DNA of 32,645 bases, from contig CAJVYQ010000062.1 in assembly GCA_913009825.1 (NCBI GenBank), positions 1 through 32,645 of the forward strand, in the 5' to 3' direction. Within the stretch, counting starts at the first letter, position 1. Each line of letters opens with the position of its first letter. A program made the translations under genes and the position numbers. Below are positions 12,185 to 32,579 of this stretch, piece after piece. A model generated the notes under the pieces. The model made no database searches and was not told the origin of the DNA. It saw only the letters and a list, made by a program, of their open reading frames with translations. This stretch comes from an uncultured Deferribacteres bacterium. GTDB lineage: Bacteria; Zhuqueibacterota; JdFR-76; DREG01.

Positions 12185-14236
12185 TTATTCATTTAAAATA
12201 GCCTTCTGTAAAATCCTCTGATTATTAGAGAAAAAGTTGACATCCGTGTTATTTAATATTGAAGGTGGGATATCCTGCATTTCCGCTAAATTTTCCATCG
12301 ACGTTAAAACTAATTTTGCGCCATTTTCTGATAACATGGCCAGTTTATCCGGAAAATTTATGGCTCTTTGCACAGATCCACTCACAGAAATATCTCCCAA
12401 AACACCCAACCCTGCCTTAAGATGTCTTTTATTAATAGCTGATAAAATAGCTGCAAAAACCGCAGCGCCTATTCCGGCTCCCACATTGCTGCCTAATAAA
12501 TTTGTAACCTGAACCGAAAGATCATAACTAGAAAGAGAATGATCCTGACTTAAAATAGATTTTTCATTCGCCTTAATGAAATGATGCACATTCTTTATGC
12601 TGTCCTTTACAATGGAACGTTTAGTCCCTGAAATATTTAGTTTACCGTTACCCTGTGTAACGCTGACTTCTATTCTAACTAAGGCCAAACCGGCCTCTTC
12701 GTCAGAAACTGAATACACGAGACCGGGCTGTAAGGGCAAATTTTCAATTAAATTTGACCCGCGTTCTTCGGGTAGTGGAACATATTTTTCTTCCTGATTT
12801 CCTTTATCTATGTAAGAAAAGTTAGTATCCCAGAATTCCATCCCCCCGATTCGCTTTAACTGCTCCTTAACTCTGCGCCGCATTTCCATAGCAACTTCTA
12901 AATAATCCTGAATATCTTTTTTTGTAAATGAGCCATCAGGATGAAGTAATTTGATGAAACCGGAAATGGTTTTCTTAACCGCTTTTGAATCGCGCTGCTT
13001 TAAATGAGTACCTAAAATAAAATATGTATCCGCGGCATCGGAAAAGGTATTTCTTCTTAAAAACTTTAACAATTCGGAAAAATAATCTGTGCTAAAACCA
13101 AAATTATTAGTGAAATTATGGGGAGATAGCTTAAGCACTTCCCATCCGGGTAAATAAAAATGAATCCGATCAAGAAAGGCTGTATCATTGCGGATTGATT
13201 CGGGCAAAGGACTAAATAAGTGGGATGTTTTGAGCAATGTTCCTACAGGTTGATTAATATTGCCATTAAACACCATGGAAGCGCTGCCGGTCATTTCACC
13301 GCCACCACCACGGGAAAATGAACCTGATTCCATGTAATCCTTCATTATCTGAATGCCGTCTTTGTCTTTAAATTTAATGCCGGCAATTTCATCAAAAGCG
13401 ACAGTATCCCAATTACCTACTAAGCCGATCTTCTTTGTTGTATTGTTAATAAATAACTGTGGAACAGTAGTTTGGCCGCCTGATAACAATATGGCATAAG
13501 GACTTATTTCCTTGTACACATAACTCTTACCCGTCATGCGTGGCCCTAATTCGATTAAATTGAAATTGGCTTCCACTAATGGTATTAATCTGGAAATTAG
13601 TAAGAGTTTAAGACGATCTGTAAAGCCTTCCGAAGATGGTTCCATACCAATACTGCGGATGATCACATCAATCCATTCCGATTTGCTGAACTTTTTTCTT
13701 GCTTCTTTCAATCGTTCAAAATCAAAATTCGATAATTGTATCGGTTTTATATCTTTGACAATAAATGGATAGACCCTATTACCAATTTTAATTTCTGCAT
13801 CATATTCTAGATCAATTATTGCCCAAATCCCGCCTAATAGCAGTTTATCATGACGAGTTACTAAACGCTCGTCAATATTGGCATTTTTTATGTTGCTATT
13901 TAATAGCTGCGCCCAATACTTATCTTTGTTGGCATCCAAGAAAACTTCAATACGATCTATAATGGTGAAATTCCGATTCTCTCGAATTCTTGATTGGGTG
14001 AGTTTACTTTCTTCCGGATTGACATAATGACTTTGAAGAATTTTTTTAACATTTTCAATCCCTTTACGGATTTGATCCTCATCGGTTGTTGAACAAGAAT
14101 TTGCCAGAAGATATTCTAAAACAAAAACCGGAACATTGGCGCCTATTTTTAATTCCCGAACTAAATCTTTTTTCACGACAAAGCCGCGGAAGTTATCCAT
14201 TAATTTTTGATCTAAATCATCTAATATAAGTGTCAT
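12185..14236 (-). CDS. brxL: BrxL, AAA+ protein with Lon-like C-terminal domain
   Basis: The best start is the ATG at 14236 (MTLILDDLDQKLM), two bases after the pglZ stop, with AGGAG eight bases upstream; the longer upstream frame overlaps pglZ and is unlikely. The 683-residue protein has the BrxL N-terminal domain, then a Walker A (GPRMTGKS, 231-238), Walker B (TVAFDEIAG, about 278-286) and a glycine-rich GSFSRGGGGEMTGSAS segment. The C-terminal third matches the Lon-type fold (VLGDISVSG...NGAKLVLTS). The catalytic serine position of Lon is glycine here (SNVGAGIG), while the lysine (FPDK) is kept, so proteolysis is unlikely. Characterised BrxL proteins are DNA-binding AAA+ rings needed for phage restriction in BREX. 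This is the last gene of the operon. Confidence 0.9.
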   Translation of the reverse strand: MTLILDDLDQKLMDNFRGFVVKKDLVRELKIGANVPVFVLEYLLANSCSTTDEDQIRKGIENVKKILQSHYVNPEESKLTQSRIRENRNFTIIDRIEVFLDANKDKYWAQLLNSNIKNANIDERLVTRHDKLLLGGIWAIIDLEYDAEIKIGNRVYPFIVKDIKPIQLSNFDFERLKEARKKFSKSEWIDVIIRSIGMEPSSEGFTDRLKLLLISRLIPLVEANFNLIELGPRMTGKSYVYKEISPYAILLSGGQTTVPQLFINNTTKKIGLVGNWDTVAFDEIAGIKFKDKDGIQIMKDYMESGSFSRGGGGEMTGSASMVFNGNINQPVGTLLKTSHLFSPLPESIRNDTAFLDRIHFYLPGWEVLKLSPHNFTNNFGFSTDYFSELLKFLRRNTFSDAADTYFILGTHLKQRDSKAVKKTISGFIKLLHPDGSFTKKDIQDYLEVAMEMRRRVKEQLKRIGGMEFWDTNFSYIDKGNQEEKYVPLPEERGSNLIENLPLQPGLVYSVSDEEAGLALVRIEVSVTQGNGKLNISGTKRSIVKDSIKNVHHFIKANEKSILSQDHSLSSYDLSVQVTNLLGSNVGAGIGAAVFAAILSAINKRHLKAGLGVLGDISVSGSVQRAINFPDKLAMLSENGAKLVLTSMENLAEMQDIPPSILNNTDVNFFSNNQRILQKAILNE

Positions 14237-14238
14237 CG

Positions 14239-16472
14239 TTATACTCCTAAACCGCTCAGATCTCTGGCAATTATTTTGGTAACCTGACAAGAATCCAAAA
14301 CCATCTTAGATTGAGCATCTAAGATAGCCAAAACAAAACAATCATTTTGTTTAAACGAAAATTCCCTTTCGATTTGTTTTTCTGCTTCTAACGAAATAAT
14401 GTCACTTTGGTAAAATTCTTTTTTATCTTTTAAAAAAACAATCTGAATCTTTCTATTTTGTCCAAAAATATCATCACTAGATCGCACGCCCTTTATTTTC
14501 ACTTTAAAAACATCACCAACAACTGTCTTTAAATTATCTTTATTTACAATACTAACCTGTAAAGTATTATAATCCGATTTTAATTTTTCTATTTTAAAAA
14601 AAGGAACGATCAACTCTTGCGGCGTTAAACCGCCATGTGCAAAACCATACGCGCCGGTTGTTTTGAAAGGATGTGAACTTTTCGCAAAGTAAATATAATC
14701 GTATTCCAAGTAGGGTTGTTTATATTCGATGAGATATTCCGGTACATGTTCAAAGCGCCTTTGGCAAAGACAATAACGCTCGGCTAATTTCACACTTTCT
14801 GCTTTGGGAATTTCAATTTTATCCGCCTCGTCCAAATTACCGGTTAGTATAAAACCATGATCACTCACTAAAAAAACGTGCTTATACCCACAGGCAAAAA
14901 TGGTTTTAACTCTATCGCTTAGATGAGCAATGAATTCATTATAATACTTTAGAGCTTTTTGATTTTTCTTCTCTGAGATGCTGTCCACATCGTCGCTGTA
15001 AAATATAGTATCGTCGTTTGGTTTGTGCATTACAGATAAATCATCAAGAGGCATGAACTCAATCTTCTTGTTTACCTCATCAACAAGCTTTTTTTCTCTT
15101 TGCGCTTTTTCTAATAGTTTCCCGCCTGCGCTAAATAATTTGCTCATATTATTTAACGTTTCCGAAGGAAAGCCGGCATAAATGAAGCTGTCTTCTATTT
15201 GAAATTCGGACTGAATAACATGTCTGATTTCATGCGCAATGCCAAATGAAATAGCGTCTCCAACAATAATGGCCACGAGCGGTTGATTTTCTTCAATAAT
15301 TTTACCTAACAATCCTGATTGATTTTCCTGATATTCCGTTTCAAAAAATTGGAACCATTTGGCCAGGAACAATTCTAAAATTTGCAGATAATAATTCTGT
15401 AACGGTTTCAAAATTCTCTCTTCCGCCAAAAAGAGCTGATAGAAGCGGCGCATATCGTTGTCCAGTTTATAAAACTGCTTCACATAATGCGCAACAGCAT
15501 CTTTTAGCGTGTAAATCTGATCGATTTGGTGAATAGCGTAGGAGAATAGCGTAAAAACAGGCCGCCAGTATTCCACCTGAATACTATCCAAAACCACCTG
15601 TTTGGAACGCGCTTCGATATAATCCAGTTTATTGGCTATCCAGGTTTTATCTTTGATGTGGGCAATAATTTGTTCAAGCGCGCGGTCATCGGCCGGTTTA
15701 AAAGGATGATTAACGGGCAATTGCCATATATCGATTGTTAGCGGTAAATTAAACTCCGCCAGACATTTTTTAAAGGCCGCTTCATGCTTTTTGGAATTGA
15801 GCCAAAGCTGATATAATTGTATTAAAAATGCATCTTTTTTTTGATTTTCAATAATGGCATTAAAAAGCGCCGCAGTAATTTCCTTAGCGACCGTCTTTAC
15901 CGGCTTACCCCGTAAGGCATGGGGTGTGTAGGCAGACATATAATCACAAAACAAATTCTTTTCTTCCGTACCATATTTTTTAAATACGCCTTCCGGATCA
16001 GACAGAAAATCGAGAATATCTTCCAGACTAAAAACACCGTCTTTACCGTTGACTTTTATGCGCGACCAAAATTCACCGCCTTTACCAATGCTTAATTTAC
16101 CGATGGCTACAATTTCTTCGGCTGAATTGAGCAAATCCATTCCCAAATGATCGTGAACTTTTTGCTTGATATAGCGGTGCAATAAGCTTAAATCCAGATA
16201 GCCACCGGTTTCACAATATTCACGCACAAAGCTGAGCTTGTCTAAAGGAAGTGCAGAAAGAATAACGACCTTTCTACTTCGATAGTTTTTTTCTATTTCA
16301 TATTTTACTTTAACCTCATCCAGTTCATTGGCAATGTTAAAAATAGTACCCATCCGATGTTTTTAAGAATTCCTTTTAAAAACAGCGCTTTTCCTTCCGG
16401 ATCGATTACGACCACACGACCATTATTGGTTAGGGTTTCTTTTACATCTTCTAAAAACCAGCGGTCTAACAT
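14239..16472 (-). CDS. pglZ: PglZ, alkaline-phosphatase-fold BREX protein, frameshifted near its start
   Basis: The large frame (16353 to 14239, 704 residues) holds the PglZ domain of the alkaline phosphatase superfamily: AIIVGDAISFGIAHEIRH with the metal-binding aspartate (about residue 366 of this frame), YSDDVDS and VFLVSDHGF. It begins abruptly. The true N-terminus is in the neighbouring frame. An ATG at 16472, six bases after AAGGA and ten bases after the darG stop, gives MLDRWFLEDVKETL then NNGRVVVIDPEGKALF, typical of PglZ N-termini. That frame reaches a TAA at 16305. Restoring one base in the five-A run (16360-16364) joins the two into a 744-residue protein. PglZ is an essential core BREX component. 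The lost base may be a sequencing error, a real mutation, or a phase switch. Confidence 0.85.
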
Positions 16473-16481
16473 GCACATTCC

Positions 16482-17519
16482 TTAATTCTTTGAAGGGACA
16501 AAATTTGTTTTTGCCAGGCGTTCTTTGGCTATTTTGATATGTTCTTCGCTGAACAGTTCCTTCTTTCTGCTGCTCCAATCCCGAACATAGTTAACTATAT
16601 CGGATAAGTGCGTTTTATTCTCTTTGGTCATAGTCCAATGGACTGTGGCTAATAACTCCAGGCCATACGGCGTCTCAAAGCCTTCTATCAATTGGACAAC
16701 TTTTTTGAATCGTTCAGCGGTTTCGGGATGCTGCTCAATAACTTTCTCCGCTAATGGAACGCCGTCTTTCAGCAAATGAATTTGAACAGATGAAGAACGG
16801 TCGCCATAACCTTCAATATAGTGCTTCTCTATGGCTTGCAAAACATGGTGTAAATTATCTGCATAAGGGCCGTATTTTGCCTTGCGATAATTCAAACGCA
16901 AAGGTTCACCGGCTTCCTGTAAAAAATACATCAGCTTTTGAATTTCCAGCATGGTGATTTCATATCCGACTTCGGCGTAATTTTTCAGTAAGCCAATTAA
17001 TGCGGCCCTGCCAATGGTCATTTTAGGTTTGGAAGTTCTTACATCCATTTCTTCGGCGCTGGGCGCTTTTGACGGCGCATAAAGGAGCAACTTAACGTTC
17101 TTTAATGATGATAGTTTTTGTTCAATTAACGGCCGTACATCATTCCAATTTAAACCGCCAAATCCACAACCTAACGGCGGAATTACAATTGATTTAATAT
17201 TTAATTTTTCTATTTGATAAATTAAATCATCTAATCCTTTTTCGATATATTCGATTTTCGATTTTCCTTTCCAGTGTTTTTTTGTGGGAAAGTTGATGAT
17301 ATACTTCGCTCCAAACATATCGCTAATTTCGGTAATGAACATTTTACCGATTTGCACTTCTTTTTTATCACAGGCCCTTTTGTACAATTTATAGTTTTCC
17401 GGATATTTTAATTTAAATTGCAAAGCAATCCCTTTACCCATAATGCCCACACAGTTTACCGTATTGACATAAGCCTGCACGTTTTCTTTTAGCAAATCGC
17501 CGCTTTTTTTTATAGTCAT
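16482..17519 (-). CDS. darG: DarG, macrodomain antitoxin
   Basis: The chosen start is the ATG at 17519 (MTIKKSGDLLKEN), with AGGAG ten bases upstream; a TTG nine bases earlier lies too close to that site. The 345-residue protein begins with a macrodomain: AYVNTVNCVGIMGKGIALQFK (17-36), NFPTKKHW with K80, and PPLGCGFGGLNW. In DarG this domain removes ADP-ribose from thymidine bases in DNA. The C-terminal half (MTIGRAALIGLLKNY...ITMLEIQKLMYFLQ...KYGPYADNLHHVL) is the usual DarG C-terminal domain, resembling Panacea/DUF4065 antitoxin domains, and binds the toxin directly. It follows darT by about 50 bases and precedes pglZ by ten, so it is translated as part of the BREX operon. Confidence 0.88.
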   Translation of the reverse strand: MTIKKSGDLLKENVQAYVNTVNCVGIMGKGIALQFKLKYPENYKLYKRACDKKEVQIGKMFITEISDMFGAKYIINFPTKKHWKGKSKIEYIEKGLDDLIYQIEKLNIKSIVIPPLGCGFGGLNWNDVRPLIEQKLSSLKNVKLLLYAPSKAPSAEEMDVRTSKPKMTIGRAALIGLLKNYAEVGYEITMLEIQKLMYFLQEAGEPLRLNYRKAKYGPYADNLHHVLQAIEKHYIEGYGDRSSSVQIHLLKDGVPLAEKVIEQHPETAERFKKVVQLIEGFETPYGLELLATVHWTMTKENKTHLSDIVNYVRDWSSRKKELFSEEHIKIAKERLAKTNFVPSKN

Positions 17520-17571
17520 AATAACCAAGCTCCTACCACTTTTCAGTAGTTGTTAAACATATTCTTGAAAA

Positions 17572-18199
17572 TTAAAAATACCAATCACGGTTTTCTCTGC
17601 ATTCAATTTTATATCCATATCTTTCCAAAAATTCATCAATTTTCTTTTTGACTGTATTATTTTAATACAACAATCCGATTAATCAATTCCACAGGCAATT
17701 TTTGATAAACCAAAAACTCTGCCTGACGGCGCCGCTTTCGATCACTGTCGTCATCTGTATTATGCCAATAGCGAGCTTTCATTAACTGCCAATCAATGAC
17801 AGTTTTCAACATTGATAGGTCACTAAAAAATTTACTAAAAGCCATAATAGGGTGACCATCACAATAAACAAATTCTAAATGACTACTAACAATATCTTGA
17901 ATCTTGACCACCAAATAAATTAGTGTATCCTGTCCTTCCTGAAATGATTCCACATTACCCATAAGAATCGTATAAAGCATGGGCGACCTTGGTGCAAAAT
18001 GAAACGGTACGTAGTCGTGCAGATTACCGCCGGGGCTGATAGGAACTATCGTTCGGTGCCGGTGTTTTTGAATTCCCTCATAAGCGATGCTTACATGATC
18101 TGAGATTTCTGCATTCAAAAGGTTTTTACATAGAACAGCCCCGCTCTGCAGAATTTTTTCCAAATTAATAAAATGCGTTACGTGATAAATATATTTCAT
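17572..18199 (-). CDS. darT: DarT, DNA thymidine ADP-ribosyltransferase toxin, frameshifted at its 3' end
   Basis: The frame as written is 180 residues (18199 to TAA at 17657). It has the DUF4433 signatures: YHVTHFINLEKIL...G at the N-terminus for NAD binding, the arginine in HRHRTIVP (about R49), DYVPFHFAPRSPMLY, CDGHPIMAF and the catalytic glutamate E161 in RRQAEFLVYQKLP. DarT attaches ADP-ribose to thymidine in single-stranded DNA. Removing one A from the four-A run at 17660-17663 continues the reading as NNTVKKKIDEFLERYGYK to the canonical ending RENRDWYF with a stop at 17572-17574. This gives 208 residues, the family's usual size. The gene starts three bases after the pglX stop. The indel either truncates the toxin behind its active site or is a sequence error. 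Confidence 0.85.
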
Positions 18200-18202
18200 G
18201 TA

Positions 18203-21200
18203 TTACCAATCCGCATGTAGATATTTTTCCAATTGTTTGGGCTTTAGCACATTCGCCTTCAGCAAGCATTTTTCCTGCAAAGGCGCAATGTTTTTGCCCA
18301 CGCCGTCATCCAATTTAGGATCGTAACCTGCTTGTAATATTTCATCTATGGCTTGTCTGAACTGTTCCACTTCTTTGATTTGGGCCTGAATGATTTCCCG
18401 CTCGCTTTGGGCTTTAACGGAATCATCCTTTTGTAAATCCAACAGGCGGTTGCGTAAGGACGACAGCCGTTTTTCCACATAAACCGAGCGCAAGCGCAGC
18501 ATGGCATCGCGGCTCCATTTGTAAATAAGCACAAAAGCTTCAAAACCGCCCAACGGACCGGACGATAAATGCCAGATGAACGGCGTTTTGGGCAAATACA
18601 TAAACAGGTTTAAGCGGTCGCTCAAATCGGCAAAAAAGCGCTTTTCCAGCCATGCGTTCAAATCCTGCCCCAGGATATCCTTGTAATTGCCAATTTGCGT
18701 CGGCGAAAAGCCTTTGGCAACTAATTTATCAAACAGCCGTTTTTGCAGAATGATTTCTCCGGCCGAATCCACCAAAGGGATAATGCCGTCGTCATCTTCC
18801 CACAAAATTTCCCGCAGCACATCGTAGATAAAATCTTTGGCCAAATCATTCATCCGCTTTTGCGGCAGGATATGACTTTCCTTAAGCAACAACATAATGC
18901 TTTGCGGATGGACGCCCGTTTTTAAAGCCATATCTTCCAACGATGTGTTGGCTTTGTACAGGTTCTCCAATTCCCGCTTCAAATTGGCAAGTTCCTGCGC
19001 ATTTAAATCTTTAACTTCCAAGGTTCCGATATAGTTTTGCACAAAATTCGGCAATTCCCCGCCAAAGGTATCGTAGCCTTTTAGCAAAGGCAGCGAGCCG
19101 GCCGGGAAACCTTCCTTATCCAACACCATCTGCCGGTCTTGCGCCGAAAGTTGATAGACTTCAAAAATCAATTCGTCAATAACGGCTTCGTTGAGCAAGA
19201 CGCGGGCTAACTGTTCGTTTTCATAATCGACATAGGTTTTGATGAGCTGACGCAGGTCGGAAACGGGCTTAAACTGCCGGGCCCAGAGAAAAGGATGTTC
19301 TTTGTAATTGGTTTCAATAATGGAAAATTCGCACAGATGTTTTTTAATGCTCACATTCTGTTCAGCTAAAAGAGAAACCTGATTTTCCAGTTCTTTTGTT
19401 GGATTGACAAAAGGAATACGCTTTAAATCGCCCACTTGAATATTTGCTGTTGGATTAAGACAATCAGCTATGTAAAAAGATAATTTTGAATTTAAAAATG
19501 CCAATAAATATAATATATTTTTATAATTTTTTGATAAAAAAATACTTGAGCCTCCAACATCAAAAATATGATTTGGTGGAAGATGCCTAAATGCATATCC
19601 ACCTCTTCCACTTGCAGAATAAGTAATTCCTTCTTGAAAATAATATTCTAAATTTTGTGGCCTAGATCTTTGTTTACCGTTTTCGTCTACTACATTTTTA
19701 ATTTCGTAACCATTGTTTTTCCAATTAACTGTAAGCCACAGGTTCCCATACCATTTTTCAAAAGTACCTCCTTTGGCGTAAAGCACCCATTTTTTATGGT
19801 CGTTTACATAGTCTCTGGAAATACTGTTTTTATCAACTTCCCACCAGAAGCGAATAAACCTTTCATTATTGCCAGATTGCAATCCAACCTTAACATCACA
19901 AAATTCATCCAGCGGCTGCTCGCTAAACTTCTCTCTGAATTCGTCAGAGATCCAATATATAAAGGGATATGATTTTATTTTTAATAATAAGAGTTGATCT
20001 AATAGATATAAATGTTTGTCTTTTAGCCCAATAATACTCTTTCTTAAACTTTCTATCATGAGATTTTTTTTATCATCACTATAGTATTTGTCTAGTTTGA
20101 TAAAAATACTTTTACTATTATAAATAGTTTTTTCTAAAATAAAGATTGAAGTATCAATGGAAGCATCAAACATTCCTCCAAAACCAAATTGAACGAAAAT
20201 ATTTATTTTAAAGTTTTTAAGTATATACTTTCTCATATCTTCATATGTTTTTATAAACATAAATGTCATAGGTGTAACCATGCCTATTTTACCATTTTCA
20301 ATAATTAATTCTGAATTCCTTCTAAAAAATGAGCTATACAAGTTATAATGAAATGCATTTGGCTTTTTGTAATTTTGTTCAATGAATATTTTTAATTCAT
20401 TACCAAAATCTGCTGAAGGGGTATATGGCGGATTAGCCACCACTACGTCAAATTTGTTGAGCAAAATCTCTACAAAGCTCATGCTTTCAATCGTTTTGTT
20501 TTCAAAAAAGTGCAGGTTGTTTTGTCGGCTGTATTTTTTTACGGCCGCTTTAATGTTTTCAAAAATTGTTCCCGGCGGGATATCGCCCAAGGTAAGCTGG
20601 TCCTTTTTAAACATTTCCATTTGACCCGGGTTTTTCATTTTTTCCAAAATAGGCCTGACTTTTTCTTCAATTCGAATCAACGAGCCAAATTTATGGGCAT
20701 TTCGTAAATCGTCCCAGATTTTTCGCAACAATTTTATGGCAGTACGGCTATAAGAGAGTTCCATAAAAAAGTCCTGCACCCGTTCATATTCCGGCAGGTA
20801 AAAATCGCTGGAAACTACGTTCATTTGCGGCAGCTTGATGTCTTTGTTTTTTTGCAGAGCTTTAATGTACAAGCCCAAACGGGCAATCTGAACGGCGCGG
20901 TCGTCCAGGTCGATACCAAACAAATTATTTTTAATGATTAAGGCCGGTATGTCTTTTTCTGCATAATCCTGTTCCAGATACATTTCATAAAACAGATCAA
21001 AGGCATAAAGTAAAAAATTTCCGCTGCCGCAGGCTGGATCTAATACTTTAATTTCCTCCACCGGTTTGGCTTTTAAGGTGGGCTTATCGGGAATATTGGC
21101 AATATCGTGCTTTTCTTTCAGCTTGCTCTCCGGATGCATTTCCATCCACAACTTGCCCAGGGAATTATTCAAAATAAATTCCACCACCCAACGCGGCGTG

Positions 21201-21850
21201 TACACCTGAGATGTAACCGGCACCCAGTTGTATTCAATTTTTTGCCCGCTTTCCTTAAAAGCTTTTTGTTTTTTGCGGTTGTAAGTTTCGTACAACCAGC
21301 CCAGAATATCGTCGGATTTCCAGTCGCTCTCTTCAATGGCGTTAAAGGCTTCAATAATGCCATCCAGATCATACACATCCGGCAGGGCATCAAACAGATA
21401 ATCCGGGGAATATAACTGGATTCTATCTAGTAATTGATGAAAGGCATAGCGCACATACTCCCGTAATCCTTCTAACGGTAAAGCGCCCTTTTCCTGATGC
21501 TCTTCCAGCCACAGCCGATGACTAAATGATTTACCGCCCATCTCCGCCCGGCGCACAAAAACCTCCGGAATGAGCTGCCGCGTTTCCATCACCTTAATGC
21601 CGGCAATGCGGTTAAACAAGGTAAAGCTCAGTTCGTCCAACAGTTTTTCGCGGGCCGGCTCATAGCCGCCGGTTTCATCTTTTAAATTGGACAGGATGTC
21701 GTCCAGGCGCCGGCGTTCTTCCTGTAATTCCGGACGTACTTTTGCCGTGTCCATTTCCTTCGACAACAGCAATCCCAGCATGGAAAGATATTTGTCAAAG
21801 GCTTTGAAAATTTGGCTGCGTATCTGATCAACCTGAACATCCAGTTTCAT
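18203..21850 (-). CDS. pglX: PglX, BREX adenine-specific DNA methyltransferase
   Basis: The 1215-residue protein is the normal size for type 1 PglX. The S-adenosylmethionine motif is DPACGSGNF (271-279), followed by NNLFGIDLDDRAVQIARL, and the catalytic motif IV is NPPY (473-476), typical of N6-adenine methyltransferases. Residues from about 480 to 800 form the variable, presumed DNA-recognition part, encoded by markedly AT-rich DNA (about 19,450-20,410) unlike the better balanced ends of the gene. The C-terminal region is long and helical. PglX methylates the host at a short non-palindromic site and so marks self DNA in BREX. It starts 12 bases after brxC and ends three bases before darT. 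Confidence 0.93.
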   Translation of the reverse strand: MKLDVQVDQIRSQIFKAFDKYLSMLGLLLSKEMDTAKVRPELQEERRRLDDILSNLKDETGGYEPAREKLLDELSFTLFNRIAGIKVMETRQLIPEVFVRRAEMGGKSFSHRLWLEEHQEKGALPLEGLREYVRYAFHQLLDRIQLYSPDYLFDALPDVYDLDGIIEAFNAIEESDWKSDDILGWLYETYNRKKQKAFKESGQKIEYNWVPVTSQVYTPRWVVEFILNNSLGKLWMEMHPESKLKEKHDIANIPDKPTLKAKPVEEIKVLDPACGSGNFLLYAFDLFYEMYLEQDYAEKDIPALIIKNNLFGIDLDDRAVQIARLGLYIKALQKNKDIKLPQMNVVSSDFYLPEYERVQDFFMELSYSRTAIKLLRKIWDDLRNAHKFGSLIRIEEKVRPILEKMKNPGQMEMFKKDQLTLGDIPPGTIFENIKAAVKKYSRQNNLHFFENKTIESMSFVEILLNKFDVVVANPPYTPSADFGNELKIFIEQNYKKPNAFHYNLYSSFFRRNSELIIENGKIGMVTPMTFMFIKTYEDMRKYILKNFKINIFVQFGFGGMFDASIDTSIFILEKTIYNSKSIFIKLDKYYSDDKKNLMIESLRKSIIGLKDKHLYLLDQLLLLKIKSYPFIYWISDEFREKFSEQPLDEFCDVKVGLQSGNNERFIRFWWEVDKNSISRDYVNDHKKWVLYAKGGTFEKWYGNLWLTVNWKNNGYEIKNVVDENGKQRSRPQNLEYYFQEGITYSASGRGGYAFRHLPPNHIFDVGGSSIFLSKNYKNILYLLAFLNSKLSFYIADCLNPTANIQVGDLKRIPFVNPTKELENQVSLLAEQNVSIKKHLCEFSIIETNYKEHPFLWARQFKPVSDLRQLIKTYVDYENEQLARVLLNEAVIDELIFEVYQLSAQDRQMVLDKEGFPAGSLPLLKGYDTFGGELPNFVQNYIGTLEVKDLNAQELANLKRELENLYKANTSLEDMALKTGVHPQSIMLLLKESHILPQKRMNDLAKDFIYDVLREILWEDDDGIIPLVDSAGEIILQKRLFDKLVAKGFSPTQIGNYKDILGQDLNAWLEKRFFADLSDRLNLFMYLPKTPFIWHLSSGPLGGFEAFVLIYKWSRDAMLRLRSVYVEKRLSSLRNRLLDLQKDDSVKAQSEREIIQAQIKEVEQFRQAIDEILQAGYDPKLDDGVGKNIAPLQEKCLLKANVLKPKQLEKYLHADW

Positions 21851-21862
21851 TGCCTAAAGCTC

Positions 21863-24800
21863 CTATTCCACTTCAATAATATCGTTGTCATTGAGCTCCC
21901 TGAACCCATCGAGTTGTTTTTGTAACACGGAACGGTATTGCCCGGCCGTAAAGCGTCCCGTTTGCGCTTTGAGTTTTACCGTTTTGGGTTTAGGCTTTTC
22001 ACCCGGTTGCTCCGGGGGATAGATGATGCGCAGGGCTGTTCTTTCCAGAACCGTTTTTTGGGCTTCGATAGATTGATTGGATGCGATGATCTCGTTCAAT
22101 GTAAAATGGCAGTTTTGGCAGGCGATTTCATATTCAATTTTTAGTCCGGGACAGACGTGTGTCTGGGCGTAGCGTTTGATTTCTGCCAATTTGCTTAAAA
22201 GTTCCCGGTTCAAATCCGCCGAAATGTCTTGCACCTCTTTCATCTTTTGCTCGACTAAGGTGGCAAGCTCTTTATGCCCGGCGCTCATGGTATCATGCTC
22301 AACCTTCATCAGGCGGTAATATTCATCTTTAATTTTCTGATAAATGTTTTTCAGTTCATTAAAATTTTGTATCAGAGACGAATTGAATTTTTCATCAAAC
22401 GTCTGCTGCAGATCAAAGATGGGATTGTCCTGATAGGTTCCACCTAACTTTTTTAGTTCGATGACAATGTGCCGAACAAATTCCCGGTATTTTTCCACCT
22501 CGGCTAATTTTCTATCAACAAAATGTAAAATTTCTCTGATCCCGCTGACTGCATTTTTAAATGCATTGTATTGATTTAAAAAATCTTCCGCCTTGGTCTG
22601 GTAGTTGGCGTCGGTAATTTTTGTAGCAAAGGGCTTGAGTTGATTCACAAAATCTTCTGCCTTCGGGAAGTAGCGGTCAAAATTGGACTGCAGGTCCCGG
22701 CGTTCCTTTACCCTGTCAATAAAGTGACGGCATAAATCGCTGATTAAGGAAATCAACTCAATATTATTAATACTATAGGAAAATTCCCGGTTTAAAATCC
22801 GCTCCGTTTGCAGTTCTTTTAGATGGTCCACAATCTGCTGTTTTTGTGCCATACTCAAAGTGGACGTAATGATTTTAAAAGCTGCTTTGCGGAAATCGCG
22901 CGAGCGGCTGAATACATTCCAGGTTTCTTCGCTTTTATAATCGTAGGTAATAATACCAGTGTTTGATTTTAGAGCCAGCCGTCCGGCACGCATCAACACC
23001 GTCAAAACAGTTGCCACCGTTCCGTAACTATATGCATAGGGCGGTTCAGCCAATTCTTTTTCCAGCTCTTCTCCGCTGATGAAACTGGTGGAAGGCATTT
23101 TGGCCGTTATCTTTTCCACCACTTTCAAATGATCGCCCACAAAATTACCGTTGTTGTCAAAAAACTGAAATTCCGCTCCGCTAAAATAAGTCCTTAGTTT
23201 GGCAGCATTCGTCTCTTTAAGAATCTTTTTGGCTATCTCTTCCGATAGCTGGTAGGGCAAACGGTCGGTATAGGTACGGGCAATGATTTTATGCTGAATA
23301 TCCTGAATCACCCGGTTAAAATCACTTTCCGTCAGCGTGTGTTCTTCAAAATTGTAAATTAACACACCGTTTTTGTATGACTTTTCGATTAAATGATTCA
23401 GTTGTTTTTTCTGATTCCCCAAACTTACACTAAAGTCTTTGACAATGCTCCGAATTCGTTCATCATCGTCATTCTGGTAGCGATCAATCACCACACCGTA
23501 GCGGTAAATGTTTTCAATCAGATGGTCGATTTCTTCAAATTCATCCATAAAAGGGATGAAAACCGCCCGGTCAATTTCAGACTGTGTCTCAAATTTAATG
23601 GTTTCGATGTAGGAATCCTTGTTTTCGATCTCCACCGTATAGGGACTTGCCAGTTGAAACTTAATATGTTTGTTGTTGGAATATTGTAATTCATCACCGT
23701 CCACCGTGGTAACAAGAAAATTGTAAGGATTACTTTCTAAAGTGCTTTTTGCTGCGGTGCTCAGAAAAGATTGATTTTTCAAAGCATCAACTAATTCTCG
23801 TTTTTTGTAGTGGAATTCAACGGTGATTTCTTTCATCTCCTCAATGAGCTTTTGCTCTAAATCAGAAGTAATTTTGTACAACCCGTTTTTCTCCAGAATG
23901 AGATTGGCGCCCACAAGACCTTTTAAGGCCTGCTCAATCCCTGGTTTTATTTCATAATATTTATCCGGATAGGCTAAATATATTTTTGCAATCACTTCAG
24001 CGCTTGCTGAAATGATTTCCGCCTCATTGAGAAGATGAATGACTTTCATTAGCCGTATACCCTCAATGGGGCTTTTTTTCTCTTTTAAAACTTTGTCCGC
24101 TTTTACAAATTTGCGTTCCAGTTCACTCTCCAATAACTTTTTTGCGCCATCAACCAATTTATCTGCCGAAACCTGCGAAAAGAGTTTTTCATCCTTTACA
24201 TTCTTCAAAACGGCGTGTGCAGCGATGATCATACCGCGTTCCGTACCTCCTGTTTTAGCCTTTTGATTAACAGCAAACAGGAAATTCTGAACCAGGTCGA
24301 ATTGATATTTGTGGAAGGGATAATAGGTAATGAAGTCTTCGGCATTTTCTGTTTTGGTGGGAATCGTTCCGTTTAAAGTGGTGGCATCTGCAATAAGACC
24401 GCTATTTTTTGAATAATAATCATTAAGCGTCTGCATTGCATTATCTTTCTTCAACAACAACCGCTTGCGAATAACCATATTCACCTCTTCAGAAGACAGA
24501 TGAATTTTGGTTTTAAAACGATCGGTTACCTTGTTCAGGTCTTGTTTCCGCACATTGGCATTGTGAATCACGTCATCCAATTTTTCCTGGGCAATAGCAA
24601 TGGTCCAAACACGACCTCTGGGAATAGCGGAAAGCGCCTCGCTGATACCTTCCAAATCTAAAAGATCAATTTTCTCTCTGGAAATGGCTTCGCTCACTTC
24701 GTCGATAATAAAAACAAGCCGGATTTCCGGAAACTTTTCCAGATAGTAAGACAGTTCTTCTTTAAACTTGGTCGTATCGTAATCCTGTATTCTCCTGTCC

Positions 24801-25462
24801 AGAGATTGTTTAATTTCGTTGTATTCTTCATCGGAATAAATCGTTTTTGTCAGCGTGTTCCGCATTATTTTGGGCGCAACTAAAGCATTCCGCCGAATAT
24901 CCTGCCAATCCTTCCCGTGATTTTTTTTAACTTCCGCCAAAAATTGATTATATTTATCATCCAGGAACAAACCATATTCAATATAGCCAAACACATCATC
25001 TAAAAATCCCAGTGTTCTTAAAAAATTCTTAAAAAGCACCCAAGCAAAACCATTGGTAGTATTTTGCTTCGCAATATCTAAAAACACAACTTTCGTCCGA
25101 TAGGCATTCAAACCGCGAATGGCATTTTCCAACAAACTCTGCTTGTTAAGTCCGGCTAATCGCTGGATGAAACGCTCTCTGAACTCGGTGCCTTCAATTG
25201 TGGGGTTTTCAGAAAGATAACCTAACATTTTACCAAAGTATGATTTGCCGGAGCCATAAAATCCAGATAGCCAGACGCCCGTTTCTTTAATATTACTTTT
25301 ATAAAGGCTAATGATTTCATCCAGATATTCAGCAATCTTTTCGGTAACGATGTAATTTTCTATTTCATACTTTAGATGGCTTGCCTCCCGGTCCTCAAGA
25401 TCAATAACATCCTTCAAATCTTCGTTAAAGTCTAATTCTAATATTTCTTTGATGGTAGGCAC
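21863..25462 (-). CDS. brxC: BrxC (PglY-like), large BREX P-loop ATPase
   Basis: The 1199-residue protein has a Walker A near the N-terminus (GFYGSGKS, 67-74) and a Walker B (LVFIIDEVSE, 249-258), in the arrangement of the DUF499/BrxC ATPases. The large remainder contains long charged helices and, near the C-terminus, a small cysteine cluster (HVCPGLKIEYEIACQNCHF) that may bind zinc. BrxC is a core component of all type 1 BREX systems and acts with BrxB, PglX and PglZ. It begins 24 bases after brxB. Confidence 0.93.
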   Translation of the reverse strand: MPTIKEILELDFNEDLKDVIDLEDREASHLKYEIENYIVTEKIAEYLDEIISLYKSNIKETGVWLSGFYGSGKSYFGKMLGYLSENPTIEGTEFRERFIQRLAGLNKQSLLENAIRGLNAYRTKVVFLDIAKQNTTNGFAWVLFKNFLRTLGFLDDVFGYIEYGLFLDDKYNQFLAEVKKNHGKDWQDIRRNALVAPKIMRNTLTKTIYSDEEYNEIKQSLDRRIQDYDTTKFKEELSYYLEKFPEIRLVFIIDEVSEAISREKIDLLDLEGISEALSAIPRGRVWTIAIAQEKLDDVIHNANVRKQDLNKVTDRFKTKIHLSSEEVNMVIRKRLLLKKDNAMQTLNDYYSKNSGLIADATTLNGTIPTKTENAEDFITYYPFHKYQFDLVQNFLFAVNQKAKTGGTERGMIIAAHAVLKNVKDEKLFSQVSADKLVDGAKKLLESELERKFVKADKVLKEKKSPIEGIRLMKVIHLLNEAEIISASAEVIAKIYLAYPDKYYEIKPGIEQALKGLVGANLILEKNGLYKITSDLEQKLIEEMKEITVEFHYKKRELVDALKNQSFLSTAAKSTLESNPYNFLVTTVDGDELQYSNNKHIKFQLASPYTVEIENKDSYIETIKFETQSEIDRAVFIPFMDEFEEIDHLIENIYRYGVVIDRYQNDDDERIRSIVKDFSVSLGNQKKQLNHLIEKSYKNGVLIYNFEEHTLTESDFNRVIQDIQHKIIARTYTDRLPYQLSEEIAKKILKETNAAKLRTYFSGAEFQFFDNNGNFVGDHLKVVEKITAKMPSTSFISGEELEKELAEPPYAYSYGTVATVLTVLMRAGRLALKSNTGIITYDYKSEETWNVFSRSRDFRKAAFKIITSTLSMAQKQQIVDHLKELQTERILNREFSYSINNIELISLISDLCRHFIDRVKERRDLQSNFDRYFPKAEDFVNQLKPFATKITDANYQTKAEDFLNQYNAFKNAVSGIREILHFVDRKLAEVEKYREFVRHIVIELKKLGGTYQDNPIFDLQQTFDEKFNSSLIQNFNELKNIYQKIKDEYYRLMKVEHDTMSAGHKELATLVEQKMKEVQDISADLNRELLSKLAEIKRYAQTHVCPGLKIEYEIACQNCHFTLNEIIASNQSIEAQKTVLERTALRIIYPPEQPGEKPKPKTVKLKAQTGRFTAGQYRSVLQKQLDGFRELNDNDIIEVE

Positions 25463-25486
25463 GTTGCAACTCCTGTAATGAATCTT

Positions 25487-26038
25487 TTAAATGACAATTG
25501 CCCGGTAATCGGAAGCTAATTTATGGTTTAGAAATTTCAATTTGCCATCGGCCCCAATGGTTGCCGGATACATAATTATAAGTGGTAAGTGTAGATGTTG
25601 AACAATAACCGAATCCATGATATTTAAATTTTCGATGCCTGTTCCATAAAGCGCTCCTGTGCGAATCAAAATCGTTAATTTGCTTTGTTCATCGGCTCTT
25701 TTAATTTCCTTTAAAATCATGCCGAAAAAATCACCTTCGGCATACTCTGATTTAAAAAGTTTCTCGGGCTCGCTGGCATATTCTTTATAAATACTAAAAA
25801 ATTCTTCGGGGCCATTATCATCAATAAATTTTACTAATAATTCTGCAATATTGATAAAATAAGCATCAGAATATTGCCGCTTTATCGTTTGAAGATATTC
25901 CTTTTCCTCTTTGGGCGGATATACAAACAAGATTGAGTACCCCCCATGGGCACTCATTTTAATCGATTGTTTATCCTGGTTTGCTAAGATAAATTTAAGA
26001 TCATTGAATTTTTCATTGATATTTTTTGACAAGGGCAT
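25487..26038 (-). CDS. brxB: BrxB, DUF1788 BREX core protein
   Basis: The 183-residue protein matches the DUF1788/BrxB layout in size and position, with conserved-looking blocks GGYSILFVYPPKEEKEYL, LTILIRTGALYGTGIENLN and LPLIIMYPATIGADGKLKFLN. The ATG at 26038 has AAGGA eight bases upstream and lies inside the 3' end of brxA, overlapping by 26 bases, so the two are probably translationally coupled. BrxB is required for BREX defence and interacts with PglZ in characterised systems. Confidence 0.9.
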   Translation of the reverse strand: MPLSKNINEKFNDLKFILANQDKQSIKMSAHGGYSILFVYPPKEEKEYLQTIKRQYSDAYFINIAELLVKFIDDNGPEEFFSIYKEYASEPEKLFKSEYAEGDFFGMILKEIKRADEQSKLTILIRTGALYGTGIENLNIMDSVIVQHLHLPLIIMYPATIGADGKLKFLNHKLASDYRAIVI

Positions 26039-26792
26039 CTATCACATCCTTATAATCATACGTTAATTCAAGTGATAATTTGTTGCCTACAAATGAAACC
26101 AAAAAAAAATCCTTGAGAGCTATCTTTTTAATTCGTTCTACTAAACTGTCTTTGGATATGGGTAGTAAATCAATGTAAGAATTTTCCAGAATATAAGAAG
26201 TCTCATCATTAATTGCTTTAAAAAGATACAGCGCAAAAATGATAGACTCATCGCTTAAAGTGATATGAACAAATTCTTTTTTTTGCTTTCCTTTTAAAAA
26301 ACCAAGTTTTTTTAACAAGGTAAGATATTTAGAAGCAACTTCTTCAATGGTAGAGTCATCCCATTTTCGTACTTGTGAATTTTCTTCTTTCAAATTATAA
26401 AGATATGAACTGAATTCTATCTTATCAACCGTTAATCTACCGGCGAAATAGAGTTTAAGAAATACCCTGTTAGTCAATTCGAAAAATACTTGATTATTAA
26501 TAGCGATCTGTAAATAAATTGCGATTCTTTTAAGCTCTAAGGTGCTTTCCTTAGTAAAACAATCATATATTAACTGTCGATGCGAAGCATTTTTATAATT
26601 AATCAGTGTGGAGTGTATTCCTCTTAAAAAACGCCCGCGAGTCGCTTCCGTGCGAATTCCATAAATATCCCGACTAATAATTTTTTCCATTACTGCTTTT
26701 TTGTCACTACCTTTAGCATAATAACGGAAAACGTCATATAGAAGATTGAAATCCGGAATACTTGCAATAACTTTTAAATTTGTATTATACAT
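26013..26792 (-). CDS. brxA: BrxA, DUF1819 BREX protein
   Basis: I chose the ATG at 26792 (MYNTNLKVIASIPDFN), giving 259 residues. A TTG at 26807 is also in frame, and neither has a clear ribosome binding site. The protein fits DUF1819/BrxA: an N-terminal helical segment with GIRTEATRGRFLRGIHSTL, then a winged-helix-like part (WDDSTIEEVASKYLTLLKKLGFL, VHITLSDESIIFALYL). BrxA is a small DNA-binding protein and the first gene of type 1 BREX operons. The preceding 80-95 bases hold a purine-rich GGGAGGAGG stretch but no promoter I trust, and no brxR. Confidence 0.88.
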   Translation of the reverse strand: MYNTNLKVIASIPDFNLLYDVFRYYAKGSDKKAVMEKIISRDIYGIRTEATRGRFLRGIHSTLINYKNASHRQLIYDCFTKESTLELKRIAIYLQIAINNQVFFELTNRVFLKLYFAGRLTVDKIEFSSYLYNLKEENSQVRKWDDSTIEEVASKYLTLLKKLGFLKGKQKKEFVHITLSDESIIFALYLFKAINDETSYILENSYIDLLPISKDSLVERIKKIALKDFFLVSFVGNKLSLELTYDYKDVIDALVKKYQ

Positions 26793-26888
26793 AAAAACGG
26801 CAACCAAGTTTATGTATAAAGTAAACTAATATGTTCGACGTAGATTGATCCTCCTCCCTCAATTTTGGATAAAAAGTATTGTTTCCCG

Positions 26889-28613
26889 TCACTCTTTATC
26901 CCAACCGCCTTTGCTGCGTAAATCCGCCACAATTTCCAGCGCCCGTGATTTCAATATAACATAATCCGTTTTTGCCACGCGGTTCAGCGGCATTTGTTCC
27001 GGCGGTAAAATTTCCACATGAGAGGGGCGTTTATAAGAAGCCATCTCTTTACAGACGGCATGGACTTCATCAGCCGTCAGATCCGTATCCGGCTTCTTTT
27101 CTACAAAAGCAACAATCGCCTCCGTAAAAACATCGTGCCGGACGCCGACCACGGCCACACCGGCCACTTTTGGTTTTAAACCGGCGGAGATAAATTCTTC
27201 CACTTCCGTTGGGAAAACATTGTAGCCTTTAGGTTTGATCAGCAGTTTCGACCGGCCGGAAAAATGCAGCCCTTTTTCATCGTAAAAGCCCAGGTCGCCT
27301 GTATAAACATAGCCATCGGTAGAGAGAGTTTTCTTCGTATTCTCCTCGTCGTTGAGATACCCCAAAAACATCTGCGGGCCGGAAAAGCAGATTTCACCGA
27401 TTTCATCCGCAGGCTTTTCGTCTCCCGCAGAGCCGTCACCTTTCATGGGCGCGCGGATGGAAATGGGACAGAGCGGCATGTCGTATCCGATACTGGCCAA
27501 AATATCGTCCACTGTGCCGTCCAATGGCGAATAGGTGCAAAATCCGGCGGTCTCGGTGAGTCCCAGACCGGTGCCGAATTGAGGCGCCATCGTGGCCAAT
27601 TGTTCCAGAAACTGCCGGGTCACAGCCTGACCGCCGTACAGAGCAAACTTCAGCGAAGAAAGATCATACTCCTTGTAATTGGGCAGCCGCCACTCCATGG
27701 CAAACAGCGCGGGAATTTGCCCAAACAGGGTCACTTTATATTTTTGAATAGCATCCAGCGACTCATCCGGTTTGAACACGTGCAGCAAAACGCTGGTGCC
27801 GCCGCGAAAGATGGTGGTGGCAAGTTGTTCCGTGGTACAACCCACATGGCTGGGCGGAAGATTGACCAGCATGGTGTCATTCTGTTCCATGCCAAAAGCA
27901 ACGCCCAGAGCGATATTCTGGATCAGAATATTTTCCGAACAGAGCAGCGCCGGTTTGGGGTAACCGGTTGAGCCGGTGGTGAAAATGATCAGAATCGGAT
28001 CCCGCTTGCCAACCTGTTTTTGCGCTTTTTTCAACTTACCGGTAATCATATTCATGATGAAAATTTTCTTGATATCGCCGGCAAAATCAACCACGCCCAC
28101 AGCGCCGTCAACAATTTGATCCGCTTCTTTCTGAAACTGAATGAAATGCTCGCAGGCGCCGCCGTTTATCTTGCCATGTTTTGCAATCATCCCGGTGATG
28201 ATCGGGCGAAAATCGGTAACCGGCGTGTTGCCCAGGCAAAAGAAGGCTTTCGGCTGCATTTTGCGAAAACTCTGATCTACCTCATGAACTTTCAACCGGG
28301 GATCCAAAGGAGCAATGATGGCGCCGATTCTGTAACAGGCGTACATCAAAAAAACATGCTCCTTCAAGAGAACCAGCATGGTTGCAACCACGTCCCCTTT
28401 TTTGATGCCCATGCTTTGCAGCTTGGCCGCAAACGCTTTCGATTTGGTGGCAAAATCTTTCCAGGTAACTTTTTCGCCCGTATTATATTCGATAAGCGCG
28501 ATTTCGTCCGGTTTTTCTTTTGCCCATCGATCCACCCAATCAAACATGCGCGGGTAGCGGTCTAATTCTTTGAATAGCGTTTGACATTGTTCATCTTTTT
28601 TAGGATCGTGCAT
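26889..28613 (-). CDS. AMP-forming acyl-CoA synthetase
   Basis: The 574-residue protein has the hallmark motifs of the ANL superfamily: the ATP-binding loop FTTGSTGYPKPAL (about 211-223), GLGLTETAGF, YTGDLGFYDEKG, the hinge region KLLIKPKGYNVFPTEVEEF and the C-terminal catalytic lysine in NRVAKTDY. It activates a carboxylic acid, probably a fatty or aromatic acid, as an acyl-AMP and then an acyl-CoA. AGGAGG lies five bases before the ATG. The gene starts 14 bases after a MaoC-like hydratase, so the pair probably forms an operon in acyl-CoA metabolism. The substrate cannot be read from the sequence. Confidence 0.88.
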   Translation of the reverse strand: MHDPKKDEQCQTLFKELDRYPRMFDWVDRWAKEKPDEIALIEYNTGEKVTWKDFATKSKAFAAKLQSMGIKKGDVVATMLVLLKEHVFLMYACYRIGAIIAPLDPRLKVHEVDQSFRKMQPKAFFCLGNTPVTDFRPIITGMIAKHGKINGGACEHFIQFQKEADQIVDGAVGVVDFAGDIKKIFIMNMITGKLKKAQKQVGKRDPILIIFTTGSTGYPKPALLCSENILIQNIALGVAFGMEQNDTMLVNLPPSHVGCTTEQLATTIFRGGTSVLLHVFKPDESLDAIQKYKVTLFGQIPALFAMEWRLPNYKEYDLSSLKFALYGGQAVTRQFLEQLATMAPQFGTGLGLTETAGFCTYSPLDGTVDDILASIGYDMPLCPISIRAPMKGDGSAGDEKPADEIGEICFSGPQMFLGYLNDEENTKKTLSTDGYVYTGDLGFYDEKGLHFSGRSKLLIKPKGYNVFPTEVEEFISAGLKPKVAGVAVVGVRHDVFTEAIVAFVEKKPDTDLTADEVHAVCKEMASYKRPSHVEILPPEQMPLNRVAKTDYVILKSRALEIVADLRSKGGWDKE

Positions 28614-30222: not shown

Positions 30223-31278
30223 TCATTCAATCACTTCCGTATTGGGATAGAAGGTACTCCAGGCAAACCAATAGGCTATAGTTACTTGTAATTCTTTCAG
30301 TTGTTTCCCTTTCATTTTCCCGGCAACACAGATTCCGGTTTCGGTATTCCAAACGGAACCGGTTTTTTTATCGATGATTTTCCTTGTATAGCTTCCATTT
30401 TTGAACCGGATATTTTGGCCATCAATCTGTGCTATGAAAGCACGTACACCACCATCCGGTGCGCGCACAATCAAGATATTTTCTTCACCCAGCGTTGTTT
30501 GGTGGAAATCCTCTTTTTTGATTTTAGTATCCGGAACCGCCAGCGCAAAAGGGCCATTGGTAACGCCGGAAATTAGTTGTTTCCCGGGCAATCTATTTAT
30601 GCGGTATTGCATGGGAAGAATCCCGAACCGCTTCTGATTCTTAAAATAGCGTTCGTACCGGGAAGAACGAACCTCTTTGCTTTTCTGCAACACTTTAGTC
30701 CCGGGATAGGTTTTTACCCACTGCGCCCAAGTGGTTTGAACTGACGGAAGTGTGGGGAGTTTTTTCCCCGCCAATTCTCCGATGATTCCCTTGCCGGTTA
30801 CATGGCTCCAGAATGTTTTGGTTTCCAAGTCCTGCATAATCAGACTGTTTCGCCACAATCTGCCGGAGACAATCAATGTCAATGTTTTGCCGTCTATCTG
30901 ACGGACGTAGACTACGCCCGTATGACAGAGCGGTCACCAGGTCACCGCAAACAGGACATCTCCGGAAACATCATTAACAATTTCATGGGAATCCAGTTGC
31001 CAGAGAGAATAGGCTCTTGCTTCTCCGTTAATCACGACACCCATCACCAATTCATCATCGGACATCTGTTTGGCAGCCTCTTCGCCGGTGACAAACTCAG
31101 GACTCCTGATCGCCGGAATGGCATCCGGCGGAAGCACCTGATAAACAGAATCACCATCCACAGTAGCAACGACTTTTGCACGGCGACGCTGTGCAAAAGA
31201 GACCTGATTGGAGCCGGTAAAAATAAACAAAAGTACGATCAGGTAACATAAAACTTTTTTCCGCTCAAGGTGGGTCAT
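30223..31278 (-). CDS. Secreted DUF3179 protein, predicted selenoprotein (UGA = Sec115)
   Basis: Start is the ATG at 31278, with the near-ideal AAGGAGGTGA at 31281-31290. The N-terminus is a signal peptide (KKVLCYLIVLLFIFTGSNQVSFAQ). The frame meets a TGA at 30934-30936 and then continues without a shift to 30223, for 351 residues in all. The sequence around it is DUF3179 throughout: GEARAYSLWQLDSHEIVND, then VTW-TGA-PLCHTGVVY where the family has TYCPLCGTG, then SGRLWRNSLIMQDLETKTFWSH and GELAGKKLPTLPSVQTTWAQW. The TGA replaces exactly the first cysteine of the CxxC motif, and a SECIS-like hairpin follows. The gene lies 17 bases after a PP2C phosphatase gene. DUF3179 has no settled function; a thiol/selenol redox or metal site outside the cytoplasm is my inference. 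The alternative is a nonsense mutation. Confidence 0.85.
30901..30936 (-). promoter_or_regulatory. Candidate bacterial SECIS element with its UGA codon
   Basis: The UGA (30936-30934, followed by C) is followed after 12 bases by the stem ACGGGCGUA (30921-30913), loop GUC (30912-30910) and stem UACGUCCGU (30909-30901). All nine pairs form, one of them G-U. The apical loop begins 22 bases after the UGA, within the roughly 16-37-base window known for bacterial SECIS, and its first base is G as SelB recognition needs. The tip GUA-GUC-UAC resembles the E. coli fdhF tip GCA-GGUC-UGC. Confidence 0.82.
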
Positions 31279-31280
31279 TT

Positions 31281-31290
31281 TCACCTCCTT
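31281..31290 (-). promoter_or_regulatory. Strong Shine-Dalgarno deciding the DUF3179 start
   Basis: AAGGAGGTGA, almost the full anti-Shine-Dalgarno complement, is followed by AA and the ATG at 31278. An in-frame GTG at 31299 overlaps the upstream gene's stop and has no such site, so the ATG is preferred. Such a site also suggests the host relies on Shine-Dalgarno initiation. Confidence 0.8.
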
Positions 31291-31295
31291 TTTCC

Positions 31296-32579
31296 TCACA
31301 ATTTTTTAACTACGACCAGTGTCATGTCATCCATTTGCGGTTTATTTCTTGTAAAAGTGCCCACATCTTCCAGAATACGATCGATGATCCCCCAGGCGGA
31401 AGATTCTTTGCTGTTCATAACGATTTCCACCAACCGTTCTTCACCGAATTCTTCCTCATCGGGATTCATGGCTTCTGTGATCCCATCGGAGTAAACAAGC
31501 ATAATATCACCGGATTCAAGACTGACATCCTCTTGCTCGAAAGATACATTTTCAATAAAACCCAGGACAATGCCGCCGGTTTTCAGACGCAAAATTTCAC
31601 CACCGTTTTTAAACAGAAACGGGTTATCATGGCCGGCATTTGAAAAACAAAGTTTATTTTCCGCGGCATTCAACACACCGTAAAAAAACGTAACAAATTT
31701 TCCCATATCGGTATTATGAAACAGCAACCTATTTGACCGTTCAGTACATTCCCTGGCGGAAGCATTCAGCAGTGCCTGGCTTCGTATTGCAGCTTGCAGG
31801 TTGGCCATCAAAATAGCAGCAGGCAATCCTTTGCCGGACACATCTCCCAGACAGACAGCGGTACAGTGCTCATTGATTCCGATGAAGTCGAAATAATCTC
31901 CGCCAACCATCTGCGCCGGAATGCTGCTGCCGGCAATATCGTATCCGGGAATCTGGGGAAATTCTTTTGGCAGAAGATCATGTTGAATTTTTGAAGCTAA
32001 TTGCACCTGTTCCCGCATCCGCACCAACGCCTGTTCCTCTTCGTAGAGACGTGCATTCTCCACCACCTGGGCAGATTGGGCAGCGATAATCGATAACAAT
32101 CGCTGGTCACCCTCGGTGAAAACCGCGCCGTGCTTTTTGTTGTAGACCGTCAGTATGCCAATGAGCTCGGATTTGACAATCAACGGAACGCACACCAAAG
32201 ATCGCACTAACTCGTTCCATTTCACTCCGCTGAACCGTTTATCCGCTTGGGGATCATTAATCATCAAGTTTTTTTTGTGTATTTGCATCCAACCCAATAA
32301 ATTCTGATCAAGGTGAAACGGCCGGTGCTCCATAGAACTGGACATGCCGCGAACCAGCGTCTTCATGGGATCCACGGCATCTTTCTCCACTAGCGTAATG
32401 ACACCCTGTTCAGCCTGAACCGAACGCAGCGAGCGGCGAATGATTGTGTCCATAATCTCCTGCGAATTTCTGGATGCGCCAATGGACCGCGCCAGATCGT
32501 TCAATGTAGAAAGTTCCTCTACAGCACGGATCAATTTCTGATTTTCTTTTTGTAATTGTTCAATGGAGATTTCTGCCAT
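31296..32579 (-). CDS. GAF domain PP2C (SpoIIE/RsbU-type) serine phosphatase
   Basis: The 427-residue cytoplasmic protein starts at an ATG with AGGGAG eight bases upstream. Residues about 1-28 form a short coiled coil, 30-175 a GAF domain, and 190-427 a PP2C-type phosphatase with metal-binding blocks GGDYFDF (226-232), GDVSGKG (245-251), SNAGHDNP, YSDGITEAMNP and the C-terminal QMDDMTLVVV. Such enzymes dephosphorylate anti-anti-sigma factors in partner-switching pathways, with the GAF domain sensing a small ligand or redox state. No partner kinase or STAS protein is in the window. It is probably co-transcribed with the DUF3179 gene 17 bases downstream. Confidence 0.9.
   Translation of the reverse strand: MAEISIEQLQKENQKLIRAVEELSTLNDLARSIGASRNSQEIMDTIIRRSLRSVQAEQGVITLVEKDAVDPMKTLVRGMSSSMEHRPFHLDQNLLGWMQIHKKNLMINDPQADKRFSGVKWNELVRSLVCVPLIVKSELIGILTVYNKKHGAVFTEGDQRLLSIIAAQSAQVVENARLYEEEQALVRMREQVQLASKIQHDLLPKEFPQIPGYDIAGSSIPAQMVGGDYFDFIGINEHCTAVCLGDVSGKGLPAAILMANLQAAIRSQALLNASARECTERSNRLLFHNTDMGKFVTFFYGVLNAAENKLCFSNAGHDNPFLFKNGGEILRLKTGGIVLGFIENVSFEQEDVSLESGDIMLVYSDGITEAMNPDEEEFGEERLVEIVMNSKESSAWGIIDRILEDVGTFTRNKPQMDDMTLVVVKKL

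Follow-up and report, generated by a model that had tools for sequence, protein, structure and literature searches.

A DUF3179 gene with a conserved in-frame TGA and a SECIS-like stem-loop, very likely a selenoprotein gene of a KSB1-type bacterium

A single TGA within a DUF3179 reading frame

The window analysed here, a stretch of 32,645 nucleotides, is contig 62 of a 5.1-Mb draft genome (123 contigs, 95.9% complete). Close to one end of it lies a gene for a DUF3179 protein, preceded by a Shine-Dalgarno sequence and a GAF/SpoIIE-type phosphatase gene (Table 1). No obvious conserved gene neighbours hint at the function of DUF3179. Elsewhere, the window holds a BREX locus (12185-26807, minus strand) comprising BrxA, BrxB, BrxC, PglX, PglZ and BrxL; its PglX and PglZ genes are separated by an inserted DarT/DarG toxin-antitoxin pair.

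Table 1. Features at the DUF3179 locus, in window coordinates
Feature	Position	Strand	Remarks
DUF3179 gene, predicted selenoprotein	30223..31278	minus	ATG at 31278; 351 codons plus TGA stop; one internal UGA, predicted to be read through
In-frame UGA	30934..30936	minus	Codon 115; predicted Sec at first Cys position of CPLC (UPLC)
SECIS-like stem-loop	30901..30921	minus	9-bp stem and GUC loop; conserved core of 6 pairs (30915-30920 with 30902-30907)
N-terminal hydrophobic helix, probable export signal peptide	31192..31278	minus	Model residues 3-23; cleavage near the SFA–Q junction, placed by eye
Shine-Dalgarno AGGAGGTG	31282..31289	minus	3 nt upstream of the DUF3179 ATG, read directly from the sequence
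GAF/SpoIIE-type phosphatase gene	31296..32579	minus	Upstream neighbour; probably co-transcribed with the DUF3179 gene

The DUF3179 gene occupies one frame from its ATG to a terminal TGA, with a lone TGA in its interior. Plain ORF calling splits genes of this type into two false ORFs. The original prediction, made from the DNA letters, held that DUF3179 sequence continues on both sides of the TGA with the frame unshifted, and profile searches bear this out. PF11376 spans both flanks of the TGA in a single frame in a search of the genome (E=4.2e-73, one TGA inside). The read-through protein matches the same family over positions 2-292 of 292 (E=3.6e-75; 253.6 bits, against a gathering cut-off of 27). 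The TGA was further proposed to replace the first cysteine of a CPLC motif, giving UPLC. Alignment with a Cys-form homologue (L096, ~51% identical) agrees, as its WCPLCHT falls opposite WUPLCHT of the window protein.

One open frame across a TGA might also be expected if TGA coded for a different amino acid, for instance Trp, throughout the genome. However, only a single TGA is read through, and TGA serves as the stop of several other window genes (for example 1641-3113, 6309-7565 and 26889-28613). Further, the column holds Cys or TGA in all aligned homologues, and never Trp. Genome-wide reassignment can be given almost no credence.

A shared UGA codon and a covarying stem-loop

Homologues had been named as a place where further in-frame TGAs might occur in this column, and 27 other genes of the phylum indeed have TGA at the identical codon. 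Together with the window gene, this makes 28 DUF3179 genes in 16 genomes (the window genome and 15 relatives). Pro-Leu always follows the TGA, with Ile for Leu once. The resulting Sec forms are UPLC (in the window and in relative G042), UPLA, UPLT/UPIT and UPLV/UPLI, the last of which constitute a shorter subfamily of about 220-300 amino acids. Two such short UPLV genes stand in tandem, nearly abutting, in one relative (L076 1196-2739, genome G013). Extra TGAs (up to three) are reported in some homologues; in L085, the sole case read fully, they proved to be the true stop and the frame beyond it rather than additional Sec codons.

Cys-form DUF3179 proteins from Bacteroidota, Chloroflexota, haloarchaea and others share the domain and the CPLC motif with the window protein. 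Their genes differ, however, in having TGC or TGT at the Sec codon and in the absence of a matching hairpin. A tree of 69 proteins places the Sec proteins of the window and G042 as sister to a Bacteroidota Cys protein (100/99 support). The distribution of Sec and Cys on this tree needs three changes, at least two of which are forced by strong branches. Interchange of Sec and Cys has therefore occurred more than once.

Immediately 3′ of the UGA, the window sequence can form the hairpin ACGGGCGUA-GUC-UACGUCCGU, whose stem starts 13 nt, and whose loop starts 22 nt, after the UGA. It had been described as a perfect 9-bp stem with a GUC loop. The stem, the loop and the 22-nt loop spacing all stand, but 'perfect' does not, since one pair is G-U. 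Nor does the C after the TGA, once read as an fdhF-like context, provide independent evidence, because it is the first base of an invariant Pro codon. The predicted minimum free energy is -19.1 kcal/mol (z=-3.1). Of 200 dinucleotide shuffles, 2 fold as well, and 2000 synonymous recodings of the gene produced no equally stable fold. The folding energies of most relatives' single sequences are unremarkable. The case for the hairpin, as read from sequence comparison, rests on covariation and on the control that Cys genes provide.

Downstream of the TGA, the 28 Sec genes align without gaps, and the distance to the stem-loop is fixed. Family-wide conservation of the hairpin covers its inner six pairs (columns 17-22 with 30-35) with a 7-nt loop. 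Within these pairs, 94.0% of cells pair, compared with 82.7% in shuffles (0/500 as high), and 21 cells are changed on both sides, that is, in a compensatory manner. Sliding the register along the alignment reduces pairing to only 20-49%. In the same register, Sec genes form 5.6 of 6 pairs and 41 Cys genes 2.9 of 6; L096, a close Cys relative, forms 2 of 6. In addition, GUGUAC occupies columns 25-30 in 25 of the 28 Sec genes, versus one of the 41 Cys genes. A Tyr/Phe difference accounts for part of this contrast, but the encoded amino acid does not account for the uniform GUG. Like the fdhF-type SECIS that is read by SelB, the element is a stem-loop that immediately follows the UGA; its apical loop contains GU and lies ~20 nt from the UGA. 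It differs in that the conserved stem has only six pairs and the loop 7 nt, and in that SelB binding is here a prediction.

These comparisons bear directly on whether the TGA is instead an ordinary nonsense mutation (making the gene a pseudogene) or a sequencing error at a Cys codon. The TGC or TGT of Cys homologues is one base from TGA, and SelD and tRNA-Sec were not found in the draft, both of which such an origin would accommodate. It would leave unaccounted for the TGA at the same codon in the other 27 genes, the covarying hairpin specific to Sec genes, and a frame and family match that remain intact for 236 codons past the TGA. The original argument that a chance nonsense mutation was unlikely to strike this codon beside such a hairpin has thus held. 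Conservation largely refutes a mutation or error here, and we consider either highly improbable.

Selenocysteine machinery in the window genome and its relatives

The search of the genome for selA, selB, selD and tRNA-Sec proposed with the original prediction succeeded in part. Both selA (558.6 bits) and selB (347.4 bits) exceed their cut-offs, and the two genes are intact and adjacent on another contig. Neither tRNA-Sec nor a convincing selD was found in this draft. For tRNA-Sec, RF01852, a 14-sequence phylum-specific covariance model, and anticodon-stem and T-arm patterns yielded only ordinary tRNAs or chance matches, part of the candidate tRNAs having been scored. For selD, no match in the window genome exceeded the 125-bit cut-off; the best (85 bits) is HypE/SelD-like and has an equal HypE score. 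The simplest reason for both absences would be an assembly gap, and the organism presumably possesses tRNA-Sec and SelD.

Among 20 genomes of the phylum, 14 have a canonical tRNA-Sec with a TCA anticodon (loci L048-L061), and SelD is above the cut-off in 18. A published study of KSB1 reports selC to be absent (PMC9012183), a statement that these tRNA-Sec genes correct. Relatives with Sec-DUF3179 mostly have tRNA-Sec, and SelD is present in all those checked. Four of them (G002, G013, G056 and G060) combine Sec-DUF3179 and SelD with no detected tRNA-Sec. The miss is therefore not peculiar to the window genome, and tRNA-Sec is often missed. In G028, where DUF3179 occurs only in the Cys form, there is only a marginal 47-bit tRNA match and no SelD. 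The Sec-DUF3179 gene lies 764 bp from tRNA-Sec in G081 and 1618 bp in G040; in G056, its distance to a SelD domain is 921 bp.

The lineage could conceivably have lost tRNA-Sec and SelD recently, leaving a former selenoprotein gene that is now poorly decoded or terminates at codon 115. The failure to find either component in a 96%-complete assembly, when SelD is found in Sec-DUF3179 relatives, is what such a loss predicts. Yet selA and selB remain intact and adjacent, the window hairpin is fully kept, the tRNA-Sec search scored only some of the candidates, and the same undetected tRNA-Sec in the four relatives accompanies SelD and Sec-DUF3179. Recent loss accordingly seems very unlikely. SelB-dependent decoding, as first proposed, is supported by the same-column TGAs, the covarying hairpin, and selA and selB in the genome, and Sec decoding of the window UGA by a SelB-type SECIS is very likely.

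Several further observations concern this machinery. SelD itself has an in-frame TGA in many genomes of the phylum (several relatives, L201-L210), while other SelD sequences of this set form part of an open frame of ~740-810 amino acids, probably a fusion. G056 (L217, contig C276, ~6131) contains what looks like the 3′ half of a tRNA-Sec lacking its 5′ half, possibly an integration-site remnant. An AhpC/TSA gene with a TGA ('WUGCR'; L228, window genome contig C3, ~144.3 kb) was considered as a second selenoprotein. It was set aside as support because it lies within a 65%-GC block that adjoins 46%-GC sequence; GC shifts from ~46% to 65-68% beside the gene, suggesting a chimaeric contig or foreign DNA.

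Predicted chemistry, known family and fold

We favour, with a probability of roughly 0.9, an exported DUF3179 protein that uses Sec, decoded by SelB at UGA115, as a catalytic or redox residue. A complex of SelB and Sec-tRNA would recognise the stem-loop that follows UGA115 closely and carries GU in its apical loop, and Sec would be inserted in place of termination to give U115-P-L-C118. If other UxxC selenoproteins are a guide, the U115 selenol and C118 would probably form a selenenyl-sulfide. The hydrophobic helix at the N-terminus of the model suggests export, and the U115/C118 pair may act in an extracytoplasmic thiol/selenol redox reaction. The UPLA and UPLV relatives lack a second thiol at that place, and a resolving Cys there is therefore not essential to the family.

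Two reviews (PMC9312934 and PMC13188914) already include DUF3179 (pfam11376/PF11376), with UxxC/T, among the selenoprotein families, and the former credits Zhang and Gladyshev 2007. Some members bear the NCBI name 'DUF3179 domain-containing (seleno)protein'. The window gene is consequently a further, genuine example of a selenoprotein family already known, not a discovery. DUF3179 was not initially counted among the classical bacterial selenoprotein families, with a doubt about novelty that proved justified. The window protein, with the same domain and Sec first in UxxC, shows no essential difference from the listed members, and it opens no new kind of biology. What is added is the UPLA, UPLV and UPLI forms, which the reviews do not state, the proximity of the gene to tRNA-Sec or selD in three genomes, and the occurrence of tRNA-Sec in a phylum for which selC was reported absent. 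Genomes of this KSB1-type phylum commonly encode the family, often in several copies. The 28 same-column UGAs, the covarying SECIS and the Cys-form control represent well-controlled evidence for a family given little detail in the reviews.

The fold offers a weak lead. A fairly confident AlphaFold model of the window protein (pLDDT 87) has Rieske [2Fe-2S] domains as its top PDB matches in Foldseek (E about 1.4e-3), and an HcaE profile matches the protein over 40 residues (E 5e-4). Profile comparison of DUF3179 with Rieske by hhalign is not significant (probability 5%), PDB profile searches likewise give no support, and a short-form DUF3179 model has no Rieske match by fold search. It is rather unlikely that DUF3179 is a Rieske-derived fold without an iron-sulfur cluster, with the Cys or Sec of (C/U)PLx at the place of the Cys in the second cluster loop. 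Were it so, an exported protein would have exchanged a metal-cluster redox centre for a selenol.
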